From Pseudomonas cannabina (GTDB taxonomy: Bacteria > Pseudomonadota > Gammaproteobacteria > Pseudomonadales > Pseudomonadaceae), in the NCBI RefSeq assembly GCF_900100365.1, contig NZ_FNKU01000001.1, positions 2,356,001-2,420,000 of the forward strand: DNA of 64,000 bases. Direction: 5' to 3'. The notes under the pieces were generated by a model that did no database searches, was not told the DNA's origin, and worked only from the letters and a program-made list of their open reading frames with translations. Each line of letters opens with the position of its first letter. The first letter of the stretch is position 1. A program made the position numbers and the translations under genes. Shown here in pieces: positions 7,015-15,456 of the stretch.

Positions 7015-8046
7015 TCAGCCCGCTGTGCGCGGCATGGCCGCAATGGCGTCGACCGACTGGCGAATCAGCGCCGGGCCCTTGTAGATGAAGCCCGAATAAA
7101 TCTGCACCAGACTGGCACCGGCAGCGATTTTCTCGGCCGCATGCCGGCCTTCGGTGATGCCGCCTGCGGCGATGATCGGCATGCGACCGGCCAGTTCGCC
7201 GGCCAGCACCTTGACGATATGCGTGCTTTTTTCCCGAACCGGCGCGCCTGACAAACCACCGGCCTGATCGGCATGCGGCAGGCCATCGACGCCCTGACGG
7301 CTGAGCGTGGTGTTGGTGGCAATCACCGCGTCCATTCCCGACTCGATCAGCGCAGCCGCGACCAGCACGGTTTCTTCATCGGTCATGTCCGGAGCGATCT
7401 TGATCGCGAGCGGCACACGCTTGCCGTGCACTTGCGTGAGTTCCTGCTGGCGCAGGCTCAGGGCTTCGAGCAACTGTTTGAGCGAATCGCCAAACTGCAA
7501 ACTGCGCAAACCCGCTGTGTTGGGTGAGCTGATGTTGATGGTGACGTAGCTGGCGTGCGCGTAAACCTTGTCCAGGCAGATCAGGTAATCATCCACCGCG
7601 CGCTCGACCGGCGTGTCGAAGTTCTTGCCGATATTGATGCCCAGAATGCCACGGTACCTGGCCGCCTGAACCCTCGACACCAGATTGTCGACACCCAGGT
7701 TGTTGAAACCCATGCGGTTGATGATCGCCTCGGCATGCGGCAGGCGAAAGATTCGCGGCTTGGGATTGCCCGGCTGCGGACGCGGCGTCACAGTGCCGAT
7801 CTCGACGAAGCCGAAACCCAGCTGCGCAAAACCGTCGATGGCTGCGCCGTTCTTGTCCAGACCGGCCGCCAGGCCCACCGGGTTCGGAAACTCCAGGCCC
7901 ATGACGCTGACCGGCAGGTTCGCCGGTGACTTGCTCAGCAGGCCGTTGAGCCCCAGCCGCCCGCCTGCGCCGATCAGGTCCAGCGACAGGTCGTGCGAGG
8001 TTTCCGGGGATAGTTTGAACAGTAACTGGCGGGCCAGGTTATACAT
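7015..8046 (-). CDS. pyrD: dihydroorotate dehydrogenase (quinone), class 2
   Basis: A 343-residue FMN enzyme that oxidises dihydroorotate to orotate with quinone as acceptor at the inner membrane (pyrimidine synthesis). The N-terminal helix [19 protein letters not shown] is the membrane-binding extension of class 2 enzymes. Core motifs include [36 protein letters not shown] (catalytic Ser loop) and IAAGGI near the end. I placed the start at MYNLAR; 31 codons upstream are open but are not part of the family. It is divergent from the nasS promoter. Confidence 0.96.
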
Positions 8047-8146
8047 GGCGGAATGGGCTCGTGAGCAGCTGAATTCAGGGTGGCGATTATAGACGTGTGC
8101 GGGCGGCGCAGGCGAGGTGCGCGATAAACTTCTTGTCATGTGACGC

Positions 8147-8161
8147 TGGCATATGCCTTGC
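8147..8161 (+). promoter_or_regulatory. sigma54 (-24/-12) promoter of nasS-nasT
   Basis: TGGCATATGCCTTGC: GG at 8148-8149 and GC at 8160-8161 are separated by exactly ten bases, as required for RpoN promoters (consensus TGGCAC-N5-TTGC). The start of transcription would be near 8173, just before the leader hairpins. Nitrogen genes of pseudomonads are commonly NtrC/RpoN dependent, which fits. I did not find an unambiguous NtrC site upstream. Confidence 0.7.
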
Positions 8162-8176
8162 TTGAATCAGCGGCAG

Positions 8177-8265
8177 GCACTCGCTGCGACGAAGGAGCAG
8201 TGCATCGACAATGGCGTCGCTTCAGCCCCTTGCATTGGCATCGGGTCGGGCGACGCCTTTTTTTT
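8177..8265 (+). promoter_or_regulatory. ANTAR-type (NasT) antitermination leader of nasS-nasT
   Basis: A putative P2 hairpin CGAC (8206-8209), hexaloop AATGGC (8210-8215; A at 1, G at 4), GTCG (8216-8219). The 3' part of this hairpin is also the 5' arm of a terminator: GGCGTCGC (8213-8220) pairs with GCGACGCC (8250-8257), followed by eight T (8258-8265), 27 bases before the nasS ATG. P2 and terminator cannot form together, which is the known ANTAR mechanism. The P1 candidate is GCACT...AGTGC (8177-8203) with an inner GCT/AGC, but its loop does not fit the A1/G4 hexaloop, so P1 is weak here. Confidence 0.62.
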
Positions 8266-8292
8266 GGATGGGCCTTTTATGAAGTGCGCGGT

Positions 8293-9504
8293 ATGACTGA
8301 AAGAACCAGCAATGCTCTGGACTGGGTAACCGGCAGCGACGCGCCGGAAATGAACAGCCTCGACATCGGCTTCATGGCGTTGACCGACTGCGCCCCGCTG
8401 GTCGTCGCCGCGACACAAGGTTTTGCCCAGCCTTACGGGCTGAGCCTCAACCTCAAGCGCCAGACCTCATGGGCCGGGCTGCGCGACAGGCTGGTCAGCG
8501 GGCAGTTACACGCGGCACACAGCCTGTACGGCCTGATCTACGCCGTAGAACTGGGGATCGGCGGCGGCCCGGCGACTGATATGGCGATCCTGATGGGCCT
8601 CAATCAGAACGGACAGTGCATCAATCTGTCCCGCGAATTGCAGCAAGCGGGGGTGATCACTCCTGAGGCGCTCGACCACCGCGCGCACCAAAACGGCACA
8701 AGGCTGACCTTCGCGCAGACATTTCCGACTGGCAACCACGCCATGTGGCTGTATTACTGGCTCGCTAGCCAGGGTATCCACCCGCTCGACGACGTGAACA
8801 GTGTCGTGGTGCCGCCCACGCAAATGGCGCAACACCTGCGGGCCGGGCGCATCGACGGTTTTTGTGTCGGTGAGCCATGGGGCGCCAGCGCAGTGCAGCA
8901 ACAACTGGGGTTCACGATGGCCACTAGTCAGGCGATCTGGCCGGACCATCCGGGCAAGGTGCTCGGCTGCACGCGCGAATTCGTCGAGCGCAATCCCAAT
9001 ACGGCAAGGGCGCTGATCATGGCAGTGCTGGAAGCCAGCCGCTTCATCGAGCAGAACCCGCACAATCTTTACAGCACGGCGCAATTGCTCAGCAGCGCAG
9101 ATTATCTGGACACTTCGCTGGACTGCATCGAGCCGCGCCTGCTTGGCCATTACAGTGACGGCCTGGGCAATCATTGGCAGGACCCGCACCCCGTCAGGTT
9201 CCACAATCAAGGCCAGGTCAATTACCCATGGCTGTCCGATGGCATGTGGTTCATGACCCAGTTCCGCCGTTGGGGCCTGTTGCGCGAAGACCCGGACTAC
9301 CTGACCGTCGCCAGCCGCGTCCAGCAACTGGCACTGTACCGTCAGGCGGCCACTGCGCTGGGCATCGACGTGCCGGCTGGCAACCTGCGCAGCAGTCAGT
9401 TGATCGACGGCAAAGTGTGGGATGGCAGCGATCCGGCCGGTTATGCACGCAGCTTCAAACTTCACTCGCTGGCCGATTCCGCGCCAGCGGTTGCCAGTCG
9501 TTGA
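8293..9504 (+). CDS. nasS: nitrate/nitrite sensor protein NasS (NrtA-like, cytoplasmic)
   Basis: A 403-residue protein of the NrtA/SsuA nitrate-binding fold without a signal peptide (MTERTSNALDWVTGSDAP), so it works in the cytoplasm. In Azotobacter, Paracoccus and other pseudomonads NasS holds the antiterminator NasT until nitrate or nitrite is bound. Typical segments are LDIGFMALTDCAPLVVA and the GxxHAAHSLYGLIYAVELG region. nasT follows 14 bases after the stop. The ATG at 8293 follows the leader terminator directly; the upstream open frame runs through that terminator and is not coding. Assignment rests on fold signature plus the nasT partner. Confidence 0.9.
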   Translation: MTERTSNALDWVTGSDAPEMNSLDIGFMALTDCAPLVVAATQGFAQPYGLSLNLKRQTSWAGLRDRLVSGQLHAAHSLYGLIYAVELGIGGGPATDMAILMGLNQNGQCINLSRELQQAGVITPEALDHRAHQNGTRLTFAQTFPTGNHAMWLYYWLASQGIHPLDDVNSVVVPPTQMAQHLRAGRIDGFCVGEPWGASAVQQQLGFTMATSQAIWPDHPGKVLGCTREFVERNPNTARALIMAVLEASRFIEQNPHNLYSTAQLLSSADYLDTSLDCIEPRLLGHYSDGLGNHWQDPHPVRFHNQGQVNYPWLSDGMWFMTQFRRWGLLREDPDYLTVASRVQQLALYRQAATALGIDVPAGNLRSSQLIDGKVWDGSDPAGYARSFKLHSLADSAPAVASR

Positions 9505-9518
9505 CGGAGAACGTGAGC

Positions 9519-10094
9519 ATGCTGCGTATTCTGCTGATCAACGACACAGCCCGAAAAGTCGGCCGTCTCAAATCTGCACTGACTGAAGCCGGGTTCGATG
9601 TGATCGATGAGTCAGGGCTGACCATCGACCTGCCCGCCCGCGTCGAAGCGGTGCGCCCGGACGTGATCCTCATCGACACCGAATCGCCCGGTCGCGACGT
9701 GTTGGAACAGGTGGTGCTGGTCAGTCGCGACCAGCCTCGCCCGATCGTGATGTTTACTGACGAGCATGATCCGGGCGTGATGCGTCAGGCAATCAAATCC
9801 GGCGTCAGTGCTTATATCGTCGAGGGTATTCAGGCGCAACGGCTGCAACCGATTCTGGACGTGGCGATGGCCCGTTTCGAGAGTGATCAGGCGCTGCGTG
9901 CCCAGTTGCATGCCCGCGATCAGCAACTGGCCGAGCGCAAGCGCATCGAACTGGCCAAGGGGCTGCTGATGAAGATGAAGGATTGCAACGAGGAAGAGGC
10001 CTACACCCTGATGCGGCGTCAGGCGATGAGTCGTCAGCAAAAGCTGATTCAGGTGGCTGAGCAGATCATCGCGATGAGTGAGCTACTGGGTTGA
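9519..10094 (+). CDS. nasT: ANTAR-domain transcription antiterminator NasT
   Basis: A 191-residue protein with an N-terminal receiver-like domain (MLRILLINDTARKVGRL, and VILIDTESPG holding the central Asp) and a C-terminal ANTAR RNA-binding domain (ERKRIELAKGLLMKMKDCNEEEAYTLMRRQA). NasT released from NasS binds dual hexaloop hairpins in leader RNA and prevents termination. Such leaders are present upstream of three units in this window. It forms an operon with nasS (ribosome site GGAGA before the ATG) and ends in a terminator shared with the convergent lscA. Confidence 0.95.
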   Translation: MLRILLINDTARKVGRLKSALTEAGFDVIDESGLTIDLPARVEAVRPDVILIDTESPGRDVLEQVVLVSRDQPRPIVMFTDEHDPGVMRQAIKSGVSAYIVEGIQAQRLQPILDVAMARFESDQALRAQLHARDQQLAERKRIELAKGLLMKMKDCNEEEAYTLMRRQAMSRQQKLIQVAEQIIAMSELLG

Positions 10095-12097: not shown

Positions 12098-12113
12098 TGG
12101 CCCGTCTATTGCT
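12098..12113 (+). promoter_or_regulatory. sigma54 promoter of the nitrate transporter operon
   Basis: TGGCCCGTCTATTGCT, with GG (12099-12100) and GC (12111-12112) ten bases apart and a good match to TGGCACG-N4-TTGCW. Transcription would begin near 12124, only a few bases before the first leader hairpin, which supports both calls. Confidence 0.78.
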
Positions 12114-12127
12114 AGGGCAATGGCACC

Positions 12128-12212
12128 GGTAGCCAACGGCGGCTACCACCGATTACGACAAAGACGTCGCTCATCTCTTTTCGCCTCAGCGGACAGAGAG
12201 GCGGCGTTTTTT
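12128..12212 (+). promoter_or_regulatory. ANTAR-type (NasT) dual-hairpin antitermination leader of the transporter operon
   Basis: P1: GGTAGCC (12128-12134), hexaloop AACGGC, GGCTACC (12141-12147). P2: CGAC (12156-12159), hexaloop AAAGAC, GTCG (12166-12169), with outer GAT/ATC (12151-12153 and 12173-12175). Both loops have A1 and G4, the ANTAR recognition pattern. A terminator can form from CGTCGC (12165-12170) with GCGGCG (12201-12206, one G-U) plus inner TCTC/GAGA, followed by six T (12207-12212); a smaller alternative is CGCCTC/GAGGCG. The main terminator uses the 3' arm of P2, so the two are mutually exclusive. Confidence 0.82.
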
Positions 12213-12330: not shown

Positions 12331-13542
12331 ATGGATACAAGCTTCTGGAAGGCCGGCCATAAACCGACCCTGTTCGCAGCCTTTCTGTACTTCGACCTGA
12401 GCTTCATGGTCTGGTACCTGCTTGGCCCGATGGCGGTACAGATCGCCACCGACCTGCAACTGACCACCCAACAGCGCGGCCTGATGGTGGCCACGCCGAT
12501 TCTGGCGGGTGCCGTGTTGCGCTTCTTCATGGGGCTGTTGGCCGACCAGCTGTCGCCCAAGACCGCGGGTATCATCGGCCAGGTGATCGTCATCGGTGCG
12601 CTGTTCGCGGCTTGGCAACTGGGTATTCACACCTACGGCCAGGTTCTGCTGCTGGGCCTGTTTCTCGGTATGGCCGGTGCGTCGTTTGCCGTGGCGTTGC
12701 CGCTGGCATCGCAATGGTATCCGCCCCAGCACCAGGGTAAAGCGATGGGCATCGCCGGTGCAGGTAATTCGGGCACCGTGCTGGCCGCGTTGATCGCGCC
12801 TGTGCTGGCCGCCAGTTTCGGTTGGGGCAACGTGTTCGGCCTGGCATTGATCCCGCTGGTGCTGACCCTGATTGCTTTCAGTCTGATGGCCCGCAACGCT
12901 CCGGAGCGCAGCAAGCCCAAGTCGGTGGCGGACTACCTCAAGGCACTGGGTGACAAGGACAGCTGGTGGTTCATGTTTTTCTACAGTGTGACGTTCGGCG
13001 GTTTTATCGGCCTGGCCAGCGCCCTGCCCGGCTATTTCAACGACCAGTATGGCCTGAGCCCGATCACTGCCGGTTACTACACCGCAGCCTGCGTGTTCGG
13101 CGGCAGCCTGATGCGCCCGCTGGGCGGCGCGCTGGCCGACCGTTTCGGCGGGATTCGCACACTGACCGTGATGTACGCGGTGGCGGCGATCGGCATCGCT
13201 GCGGTGGGTTTCAATCTGCCCAGTTCGTGGGCCGCATTGGCGCTGTTCGTCGCAGCTATGCTTGGCCTGGGTGCCGGCAACGGTGCCGTCTTCCAGTTGG
13301 TGCCGCAACGCTTTCGCAAGGAAATTGGCGTCATGACCGGGCTAATCGGCATGGCCGGTGGCATCGGCGGCTTTTTGCTGGCAGCCGGGCTGGGCACCAT
13401 CAAGCAGAACACCGGCGATTACCAGTTGGGCCTCTGGCTGTTCGCGGGGCTGGCCGTGCTGGCCTGGTTCGGCCTGCTGAACGTCAAGCGTCGCTGGAGA
13501 ACCACCTGGGGTTCGGCAGCGGTGACGGCGGCGCGGGTCTGA
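12331..13542 (+). CDS. nitrate/nitrite transporter of the NarK/NasA MFS family
   Basis: A 403-residue inner-membrane protein with about twelve hydrophobic helices. Signatures of the nitrate porter family include GMAGASFAVALPLASQWYPP and the repeated glycine-rich helices GIAGAGNSGTVLAALIAP and GLIGMAGGIGGFLL. It would import nitrate for assimilation. The start ATG at 12331 has AGGTG at a normal distance; the GTG two codons upstream is too close to it. It is the first gene after a NasT-type leader and is followed seven bases later by the phosphatase-kinase gene. Often called nasA or narK2-like in pseudomonads; I leave the symbol open because nasA is also used for the reductase. Confidence 0.92.
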   Translation: MDTSFWKAGHKPTLFAAFLYFDLSFMVWYLLGPMAVQIATDLQLTTQQRGLMVATPILAGAVLRFFMGLLADQLSPKTAGIIGQVIVIGALFAAWQLGIHTYGQVLLLGLFLGMAGASFAVALPLASQWYPPQHQGKAMGIAGAGNSGTVLAALIAPVLAASFGWGNVFGLALIPLVLTLIAFSLMARNAPERSKPKSVADYLKALGDKDSWWFMFFYSVTFGGFIGLASALPGYFNDQYGLSPITAGYYTAACVFGGSLMRPLGGALADRFGGIRTLTVMYAVAAIGIAAVGFNLPSSWAALALFVAAMLGLGAGNGAVFQLVPQRFRKEIGVMTGLIGMAGGIGGFLLAAGLGTIKQNTGDYQLGLWLFAGLAVLAWFGLLNVKRRWRTTWGSAAVTAARV

Positions 13543-13549
13543 GGCACCG

Positions 13550-15211
13550 ATGACGCTGCAACTGCGTTTTGCCGAGTTCAGTGCCAGCGGGCCGCGCGCG
13601 GAGAATCAGGACGCGCTGCGGCTGGTCACACCGGTGGCGGCGCTAGCGGCCAGCAAGGGCTATCTGTTCGCCCTTGCCGACGGCGTCAGCCAGTGTGCCG
13701 ACGGTGCACTGGCGGCCCAATCCACGCTGCAAGCGCTGGCGCTGGATTACTACGCCACACCGGAAACCTGGGGCGTGGCTCAGTCGCTTGACCGGCTGCT
13801 GCTGGCGCAGAATCGCTGGTTGCTGGCCAACGGCCTGATGACCACTCTCAGCGCCCTGGTGCTGCGCGGTCGACGCTTCACCCTCGCGCATGTCGGTGAC
13901 TGTCGGGTTTATCGCTGGACTGCCGGAACGCTCACGCGCATCAGCGAAGATCACGTCTGGGAACAGGCCGACATGCAGCACGTGCTCAAGCGCGCGCTGG
14001 GCCTCGATCAATACGTGGTCATGGATTACCTGAACGGCGAACTGTGCGCGGGCGAGCGGCTGTTACTGGTCAGCGACGGTGTCTGGGCAACGCTGGGCGA
14101 TGCCAGCATTCGCTCGATTCTTGGCGAGCACGACGACCTCGATGCGGCGGTGAAAACCCTGGTCAGCGCGGCCCATCTGGCGGGCAGTCAGGACAACGCC
14201 AGCGCGCTGCTGATCCAGGTCGACAGCCTCGGCGAAGATGACTTGGGCGATGCGTTGTTACAGTTGCAACAGTGGCCGCTGCCGCCTGCGCTCAAGCACG
14301 GCCAGATGTTTGAAGGCTGGAGCGTCGGCAGCGTCGTGGCGCAATCCCGGCAGTCGATGCTTTATCGGGTCAACGACGCACATGGCCAGCCCTGGCTACT
14401 GAAAACCCTGCCTGCCAGTCGCCATGACGAAGCCGGGGCTGGCCAGGGGCTGCTGCTCGAAGAGTGGTTTTTGCGCCGGGTTGCCGGGCGCTTCTTCCCC
14501 GAGCTGCACCCGCTCGCAGAGCGCCAGCACCTGTATTACGTGATGCGCGAACATTCCGGGCGCACCCTGGCCGAGCTGTTCGTCGCCGCTGGCCCTTTGC
14601 CGCTCGCGCAATGGCAGGACCTCTCGACGCGGCTGTTGCGCGCCAGCGGTCTGCTGCATCGACGCAATATCATTCATCGCGACATAAAACCGGACAACCT
14701 GCTGCTGGGTGACGATGGCGAACTGCGTCTGCTGGATTTCGGTCTGGCATTTTGCCCCGGCCTGTCAGCCGTCAATCCCGACGACTTGCCCGGCACACCG
14801 AGCTACATCGCGCCGGAAGCCTTCAACGGTGCCGAGCCTGCCCCGCAACAAGACCTTTACGCCGTCGGTGTCACGCTGTATTACCTGCTGACCGGCCATT
14901 ACCCCTACGGCGAAATTGAGGCGTTTCAACATCGTCGCTTCGCTACGCCGATCCCCGCCAGCCGCTACCGCCCCGATCTGCCGCAATGGCTGAGCCAAAA
15001 CCTCGACAAGGCACTGCAAGCCGATCCGCAACATCGCTATGAAACCGCCGAGCAATGGCTGCTGGAACTGGAACAGGCCGAACTGCGCCCGGTCGCTGCA
15101 CGGCCCCGGCCGCTGCTGGAACGCGAACCGCTGAAAGTCTGGCGCAGCGTGGCACTGGTTTCGCTGCTGCTCAATCTGCTCGTGGTGATCTGGCTCATGG
15201 GCCGTCATTGA
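13550..15211 (+). CDS. PP2C phosphatase-Ser/Thr protein kinase fusion with C-terminal membrane anchor
   Basis: A 553-residue protein with two opposing activities. Residues 1-230 are a PP2C-type phosphatase (AENQDALR, FALADGVSQ, HVGDCRVYRW, LLVSDGVW, GSQDNAS). Residues about 255-510 are a Hanks-type kinase: catalytic Lys in WLLKTLP, HRDIKPDNLLL, DFGLAF and GTPSYIAPEAF. A single hydrophobic segment (SVALVSLLLNLLVVIWLMG) ends the protein and probably anchors it to the inner membrane. The gene follows the nitrate transporter by seven bases, and the same fusion sits in the nitrate locus of P. aeruginosa, so it may act on nitrate uptake or reduction; its substrate is not known to me. Confidence 0.9.
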   Translation: MTLQLRFAEFSASGPRAENQDALRLVTPVAALAASKGYLFALADGVSQCADGALAAQSTLQALALDYYATPETWGVAQSLDRLLLAQNRWLLANGLMTTLSALVLRGRRFTLAHVGDCRVYRWTAGTLTRISEDHVWEQADMQHVLKRALGLDQYVVMDYLNGELCAGERLLLVSDGVWATLGDASIRSILGEHDDLDAAVKTLVSAAHLAGSQDNASALLIQVDSLGEDDLGDALLQLQQWPLPPALKHGQMFEGWSVGSVVAQSRQSMLYRVNDAHGQPWLLKTLPASRHDEAGAGQGLLLEEWFLRRVAGRFFPELHPLAERQHLYYVMREHSGRTLAELFVAAGPLPLAQWQDLSTRLLRASGLLHRRNIIHRDIKPDNLLLGDDGELRLLDFGLAFCPGLSAVNPDDLPGTPSYIAPEAFNGAEPAPQQDLYAVGVTLYYLLTGHYPYGEIEAFQHRRFATPIPASRYRPDLPQWLSQNLDKALQADPQHRYETAEQWLLELEQAELRPVAARPRPLLEREPLKVWRSVALVSLLLNLLVVIWLMGRH

Positions 15212-15323
15212 TTCACGACTTGCCAACCGGCAACCGCCCCGCTTCTGTGCGACCCGCCTCAACCCGGTGCAGAAACACACCTGACCGGCCATGTGATCCC
15301 CCGTCACACGGCCGATTGCGAGT

Positions 15324-15338
15324 TGGCACAAGCGCTGC
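15324..15338 (+). promoter_or_regulatory. sigma54 promoter of the nitrate reductase operon
   Basis: TGGCACAAGCGCTGC: GG (15325-15326) and GC (15337-15338) are ten bases apart and TGGCACA is a near-consensus -24 element. The start would be near 15350, 15 bases before the first leader hairpin. Confidence 0.72.
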
Positions 15339-15364
15339 ATGACCTGTTTCAGATCATTCATAAC

Positions 15365-15456
15365 GCGCAGCCCTCAACGATGAAGGCTGCGCCTCCCGAG
15401 ATAACGGGACCGGACAAAGGCGTCCCTATCAGGCAACTGACGGGACGCCTTTTTTT
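15365..15456 (+). promoter_or_regulatory. ANTAR-type (NasT) dual-hairpin antitermination leader of the nitrate reductase operon
   Basis: P1: GCGCAGCC (15365-15372) with GGCTGCGC (15385-15392), a one-base mismatch, then TC/GA closing hexaloop AACGAT (15376-15381). P2: GGAC (15412-15415), hexaloop AAAGGC (15416-15421), GTCC (15422-15425). Both loops have A1 and G4. The terminator AAGGCGTCCC (15417-15426) / GGGACGCCTT (15442-15451) with a run of T to 15456 shares the loop and 3' arm of P2, so P2 and terminator exclude each other. A further hairpin TCCCG/CGGGA (15394-15409) lies between them and may be an accessory element. Confidence 0.82.

Follow-up and report, generated by a model that had tools for sequence, protein, structure and literature searches.

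The window analysed here is a 64,000-nucleotide stretch of a 6.39-Mb Pseudomonas genome whose neighbours in a nasS tree are P. avellanae, P. caricapapayae, P. congelans and P. amygdali. Its forward strand carries nasS (8293–9504), which encodes an NMT1-like binding protein (domain search) that we take to be the nitrate-sensing partner NasS on the basis of family knowledge and synteny with nasT and the nas genes. The start of nasT (9519–10094, same strand), the gene for a receiver–ANTAR antiterminator (PF03861, 60 bits; PF00072, 31 bits), follows 14 nt after nasS. A levansucrase-family gene (PF02435; 10154–11473) on the opposite strand lies between nasT and nasA and may be the cause of the nasA offset of approximately 4 kb found in four close relatives (versus approximately 2 kb in most others). 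Between nasA and nirB lies a gene (13550–15211) whose product combines PP2C-phosphatase and protein-kinase domains, and a match to it also follows nasA at three other loci (L147, L148 and L170).

The region upstream of nasS, read on the same strand, has the layout of a transcription attenuator. A sigma-54-type −24/−12 promoter, GGCATATGCCTTGC (8148–8161; GG-N10-GC with GGCA...TTGC, identified by sequence pattern), precedes two hairpins: P1 (8177–8203), which is degenerate, with G at loop position 4 (G4) and one G·G mismatch in the predicted fold, and P2 (8206–8219; CGAC-AATGGC-GTCG), the loop of which has A at position 1 (A1) and G4. The 5′ arm of a predicted intrinsic terminator, GGCGTCGC (8213–8220), shares bases with the loop and 3′ arm of P2 and pairs with a downstream 3′ arm, GCGACGCC (8250–8257), which is followed by a run of eight T (8258–8265) as the U tract. 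Promoter, P2 hairpin and terminator are all present as described in the original prediction, including the bases common to terminator and hairpin. Because the terminator 5′ arm consists of the 3′ arm of P2 and some of its loop, P2 and the terminator are mutually exclusive. The nasS ATG (8293) lies 27 nt downstream of the end of the T run, a distance too short for a second promoter, so nasS transcripts initiated upstream all cross the switch; a scan of 8046–8300 found no sigma-70 promoter between the terminator and nasS. Taken alone, the leader folds moderately better than shuffled sequences (z = −2.0; 5 of 200 shuffles were as good). A generic terminator scan called no terminator at this leader, since it permits loops of 3–8 nt and the loop of the nasS terminator spans 29.

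Conservation and covariation of the nasS leader

We compared the 80 closest named NasS loci (taken from the top of at least 597 matches and so biased towards relatives), all of which have a NasT match downstream of NasS. The promoter pattern precedes nasS in 79 of these loci and occurs in only 12 of 1,600 shuffled upstream regions. A search for the same leader in other pseudomonads, suggested with the original prediction, found P2 before nasS in 65 of the 80 loci, with a T run in range in the same 65 (in L033, from P. caricapapayae, the T run counted falls within an insertion); the hairpin, whose absence from close relatives would have spoken against the prediction, is present in the nearest relatives and missing from 15 loci. 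Simple patterns recovered all four elements, P1 included, in 60 loci. In a second set of the 30 best loci, which includes the window and probably overlaps the 80, P2 was found in 30 and the promoter in 29. Across the 80 loci (3.18 Mb, both strands), a P2-type hairpin with an overlapping terminator gave 196 matches, mostly at nasS, nasA and nirB, compared with 6 after one 100-bp block shuffle; a narrower pattern in fixed windows marked 64 (nasS), 65 (nasA) and 48 (nirB) loci.

To look beyond these loci we used a covariance model of 61 nasS leaders, the window among them. It matched 199 of 248 genomes of the family, a count that takes in nasA leaders. When 40 matched Pseudomonadaceae loci were inspected besides that of the window's own genome, 33 lay directly before nasS and 7 before nasA, and the nasS copies came from four genera of the family. 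Order-wide, the model matched 28 of 293 genomes; in the 15 matched genomes outside the family, each inspected at one locus, no NasS match exceeded 32% identity.

The 61 aligned leaders were tested for covariation against 500 shuffles and slid controls. In P1, both partners have changed in seven of eight pairs; 80.6% of cells are paired, with the pair at columns 20/32 failing in 30 leaders; the terminator helix is paired in 96.2% of cells, and four of its nine pairs have changed on both sides. None of the 500 shuffles reached the covariation score of P1 and the terminator, and the slid controls scored lower. The three core pairs of P2 are uninformative either way, as they are invariant in all 61 leaders and their sequence belonged to the selection pattern; its outermost (fourth) pair, C-G in the window, is formed (as C-G or U-G) in only seven. 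In two leaders (L100 and L106), a P2 arm GGTGTC occurs with a terminator arm GGCACC, a compensated change. The P2 loop residues A1 and G4 were likewise part of the search pattern. The P1 loop played no role in the selection of rows; its A1 is kept in 59 of 61 rows, as is its G4.

Homologous leaders before nasA and nirB

The window contains two homologous leaders, both on the forward strand. One (12099–12212; P1 12128–12147, P2 12157–12168, T run 12207–12212) precedes nasA, here the gene of a NarK-family transporter, and the other (15312–15456; promoter from 15325, P2 15413–15424, T run 15450–15456) precedes nirB. An Rfam scan annotated the first as narK RNA (RF03032; 12099–12170) and the second as P11 (RF00625; 15312–15449). 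The nasS leader has no Rfam annotation because its scores fall below both gathering cut-offs: 27.4 bits (E = 0.0023) against narK RNA, for which the cut-off is 43.2, and 16.3 bits (E = 0.19) against P11, for which it is 70. Of seven relatives scanned, five had an Rfam narK RNA upstream of nasA, four had a P11 upstream of nirB, and none had its nasS leader annotated.

Searched against the whole 6.4-Mb genome (with 150 of 4,038 first-look candidates scored), the covariance model gave three matches only at E ≤ 1—the leaders of nasS (61.1 bits), nasA (43.1 bits) and nirB (28.4 bits). A separate profile of 60 relatives, from which the window was left out, ranked the same three at the top (E = 1.8e-13, 7.5e-8 and 0.0014, respectively), with the next match at 13316 (E = 0.093), and gave no matches on one block-shuffled window.

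Like the nasS leader, narK RNA has a sigma-54 promoter-like start and a P1, followed by CGAC-A..G..-GTCG; its P1 has the A..G.. hexaloop seen in most nasS leaders. The Rfam consensus, however, has one hairpin and ends before the terminator, whereas the nasS leader comprises P1, P2 and terminator; and narK RNA guards a transporter gene, whereas the nasS leader guards the regulator. The nasS leader would work like narK RNA without belonging to the family by score. The P11 model also resembles the nasS leader in its promoter-like start, hairpin, GGACAAAGGCGUCC hairpin and terminator arm. Rfam files P11 as a gene and sRNA, but here it lies directly before nirB and resembles the nirB leader; given its promoter-like start, hairpins and terminator, the P11 'sRNA' looks like the nirB leader, both here and in four of the seven relatives scanned. 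Since the narK RNA and P11 models both open with sigma-54 promoter-like sequence, part of each 'RNA' is probably untranscribed. If NasT does act on the nasS leader, one probable NasT switch would unite two separately catalogued Rfam entries, narK RNA and the P11 'sRNA', with a third, uncatalogued copy at nasS.

Predicted autoregulation by NasT

In this family, NasS sequesters NasT and lets it go in response to nitrate. ANTAR proteins recognise two hairpins whose hexaloops carry A1 and G4, and in doing so keep an overlapping terminator from forming. Such dual-hexaloop antitermination is known from NasR/nasF, EutV/eut and NasT/nirB, in which, as in nearly all aligned nasS leaders (the window's own P1 keeps only G4), two A1/G4 hairpins are present and the second overlaps the terminator. 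The nasS leader differs from these systems in that the regulator would control its own operon: the genome's cognate ANTAR protein, NasT (PF03861 over cut-off), is encoded in it. Together with the rules for NasS/NasT and ANTAR proteins, the architecture shared with the nasA and nirB leaders makes NasT autoregulation the best reading, and we consider it likely that the nasS–nasT leader is a NasT-responsive transcription attenuator that provides positive feedback on its own operon. The proposal that the operon has its own NasT switch is strengthened by what we observe at the leader, namely its anatomy, exclusive pairings, covariation, conservation (65 of 80 loci) and the layout held in common with nasA and nirB. 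Binding of NasT to the leader, an effect of nitrate and feedback in vivo are what this layout predicts.

The switch would operate as follows. Sigma-54 polymerase and an activator, probably NtrC, would initiate transcription approximately 12 nt after position 8161. Unless NasT intervenes, the 3′ arm of P2 would pair with the downstream arm, the terminator would form and transcription would halt before nasS. With nitrate, NasT would be freed from NasS and its ANTAR domains would bind the P1 and P2 loops; P2 held by NasT would block the terminator, and nasS–nasT would be transcribed. Leakage would supply the first NasT, and the outcome would be a positive feedback that produces sensor and antiterminator together. 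For nasS–nasT, NtrC as the activator, the release of NasT by nitrate and the A1/G4 rule are assumed from what is known of the family. A scan with an NtrC consensus found no convincing site upstream of nasS in the window or the 65 loci. The best match in the window (10/14 at −182) is marginal, was equalled in 9% of shuffles and lies inside the divergent pyrD gene; the same stretch recurs in many of 20 loci compared, and over the 65 loci the best score averaged 8.75 versus 8.32 in shuffled sequences.

It had also been proposed that a weaker switch at nasS than at the structural operons would give an ordered response. In paired comparisons of terminator energies, nasS had the weaker terminator in 26 of 54 loci when set against nasA and in 19 of 46 when set against nirB. 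With no consistent direction in these energies, we rejected a generally weaker nasS switch as a rule, and the ordered-response idea is unsupported.

Could the attenuator obey some factor other than NasT, such as AmiR or a general elongation factor? Two ANTAR proteins were found in the genome, NasT and an AmiR, the latter with an AmiR N-terminal domain (G000:C1:2201268-2201426), but AmiR adjoins an open reading frame for an AmiC-kind periplasmic-binding protein approximately 160 kb from the nas genes, whereas nasT is the adjacent cistron and the loop positions and layout of the nasS leader are those of the nasA and nirB leaders. Control by another factor is therefore extremely improbable. The leader might otherwise be a passive by-product, that is, a duplicated copy of the nasA leader with no regulatory role, as its scattered absences (at least seven changes in 81 rows) would allow. 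We regard this as very unlikely, given that compensation within P1 and within the terminator stem, like the conserved loop positions, points to selection, and that the leader precedes nasS in four genera of the family.

A further alternative concerns the window's own clade and turns on P1. Most relatives have a canonical P1 (CC-A..G..-GG), from which the window differs by a loop A1→G change and one C→G change in the stem. Leaders of canonical form occur, for example, in P. protegens FD6 (L050) and at several P. fluorescens loci. The original prediction was right that this hairpin is degenerate, but the 10-base loop it described is not necessary, as the predicted fold has a C-G-closed hexaloop, GACGAA, with a 1×1 G·G mismatch above a longer stem. 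L172, the closest relative found among 398 genomes, has the same GACGAA loop and C→G stem change, whereas L173 and eight other relatives compared have canonical P1 loops. By this sequence comparison, P1 degeneracy marks the window together with L172 and is no general trait of nasS leaders. The altered P1 makes a NasT response less certain in this strain than in its relatives, and the window's clade may respond more weakly or not at all. It is possible, though we are inclined to doubt it, that the attenuator is decaying there: with P1 lost, NasT would bind poorly and the terminator would constitutively dampen nasS–nasT, autoregulation holding for the relatives. The changes shared by the window and L172 would fit such decay, as would the loss or degradation of the element in further lineages (L077, in which the leader is gone, L081 and L085). 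Against it, the window and L172 each retain an undamaged P2, terminator and T run, the window's P1 is still predicted to fold into a long stem capped by a hexaloop that keeps G4, and A1 is also G in the P1 loop of L104.

Lineages without the nasS copy

Nine of the 15 loci that lack P2 before nasS belong to one clade, with records of P. putida, P. monteilii and P. huaxiensis among its members; the remaining six are scattered on the tree, on which at least seven changes are needed, five of them forced by starred branches. A match to the promoter pattern is retained in 14 of the 15 (that of L095 has a different context and may be due to chance). All 15 have a P2-type hairpin before nasA, so the nasS copy is absent by itself while the nasA copy stays; in L094, L095, L102 and L111 the nasA P1 is also visible, and the T runs there have only three or four bases. 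Judged from gene offsets, the loci that have lost the nasS copy are not strictly those without nirB nearby. The presence of the nasS leader in other genera favours loss over gain, which change counts alone cannot separate.

Autoregulation by NasT would have a precedent in principle. In the ami amidase operon (AmiC–AmiR), the ANTAR antiterminator is encoded within the operon that it antiterminates, so positive feedback of this kind is known. There, the regulators ride behind a structural gene, whereas nasS–nasT is a two-gene sensor/antiterminator operon with its own copy of the switch; to our knowledge, a switch in this circuit position has not been described. If the reading is correct, nitrate itself sets the amount of NasS and NasT in many pseudomonads, and induction curves, nasT and nasS mutants and complementation experiments would need to be read differently. 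Lineages that lack only the nasS copy and keep the nasA switch would be natural controls for comparing an open with a closed loop. A wider picture, which we put forward as speculation and think unlikely to hold as a whole, is that nitrate perception in most pseudomonads forms a closed positive-feedback loop from NasT to nasS–nasT with a possibly all-or-none or history-dependent response, that the loop was opened in the P. putida group and in several single lineages when the nasS copy alone was lost, and that the window's clade perhaps runs on a single intact hexaloop hairpin.

Several loci show variants of the leader. In L081 (P. libanensis) we identified by eye an apparently decayed copy, CAC-ATAGGC-GTG, in which A1, G4 and pairing are kept and the T run is broken. 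An insertion of approximately 160–225 nt separates P2 from the terminator 3′ arm in L033 and in L003, a relative, and in a third relative (L181) the same insertion begins at the same P2/terminator junction. Ten Pseudomonas loci among the matches listed (L203–L212) encode a second NasS-like protein (58–62% identical), and the sequence extracted around it contains no NasT match. By eye this protein has a twin-arginine-like signal, so it probably binds nitrate after export. All ten loci have the promoter pattern, both hairpins (P1 and P2) and a T run upstream of its gene.
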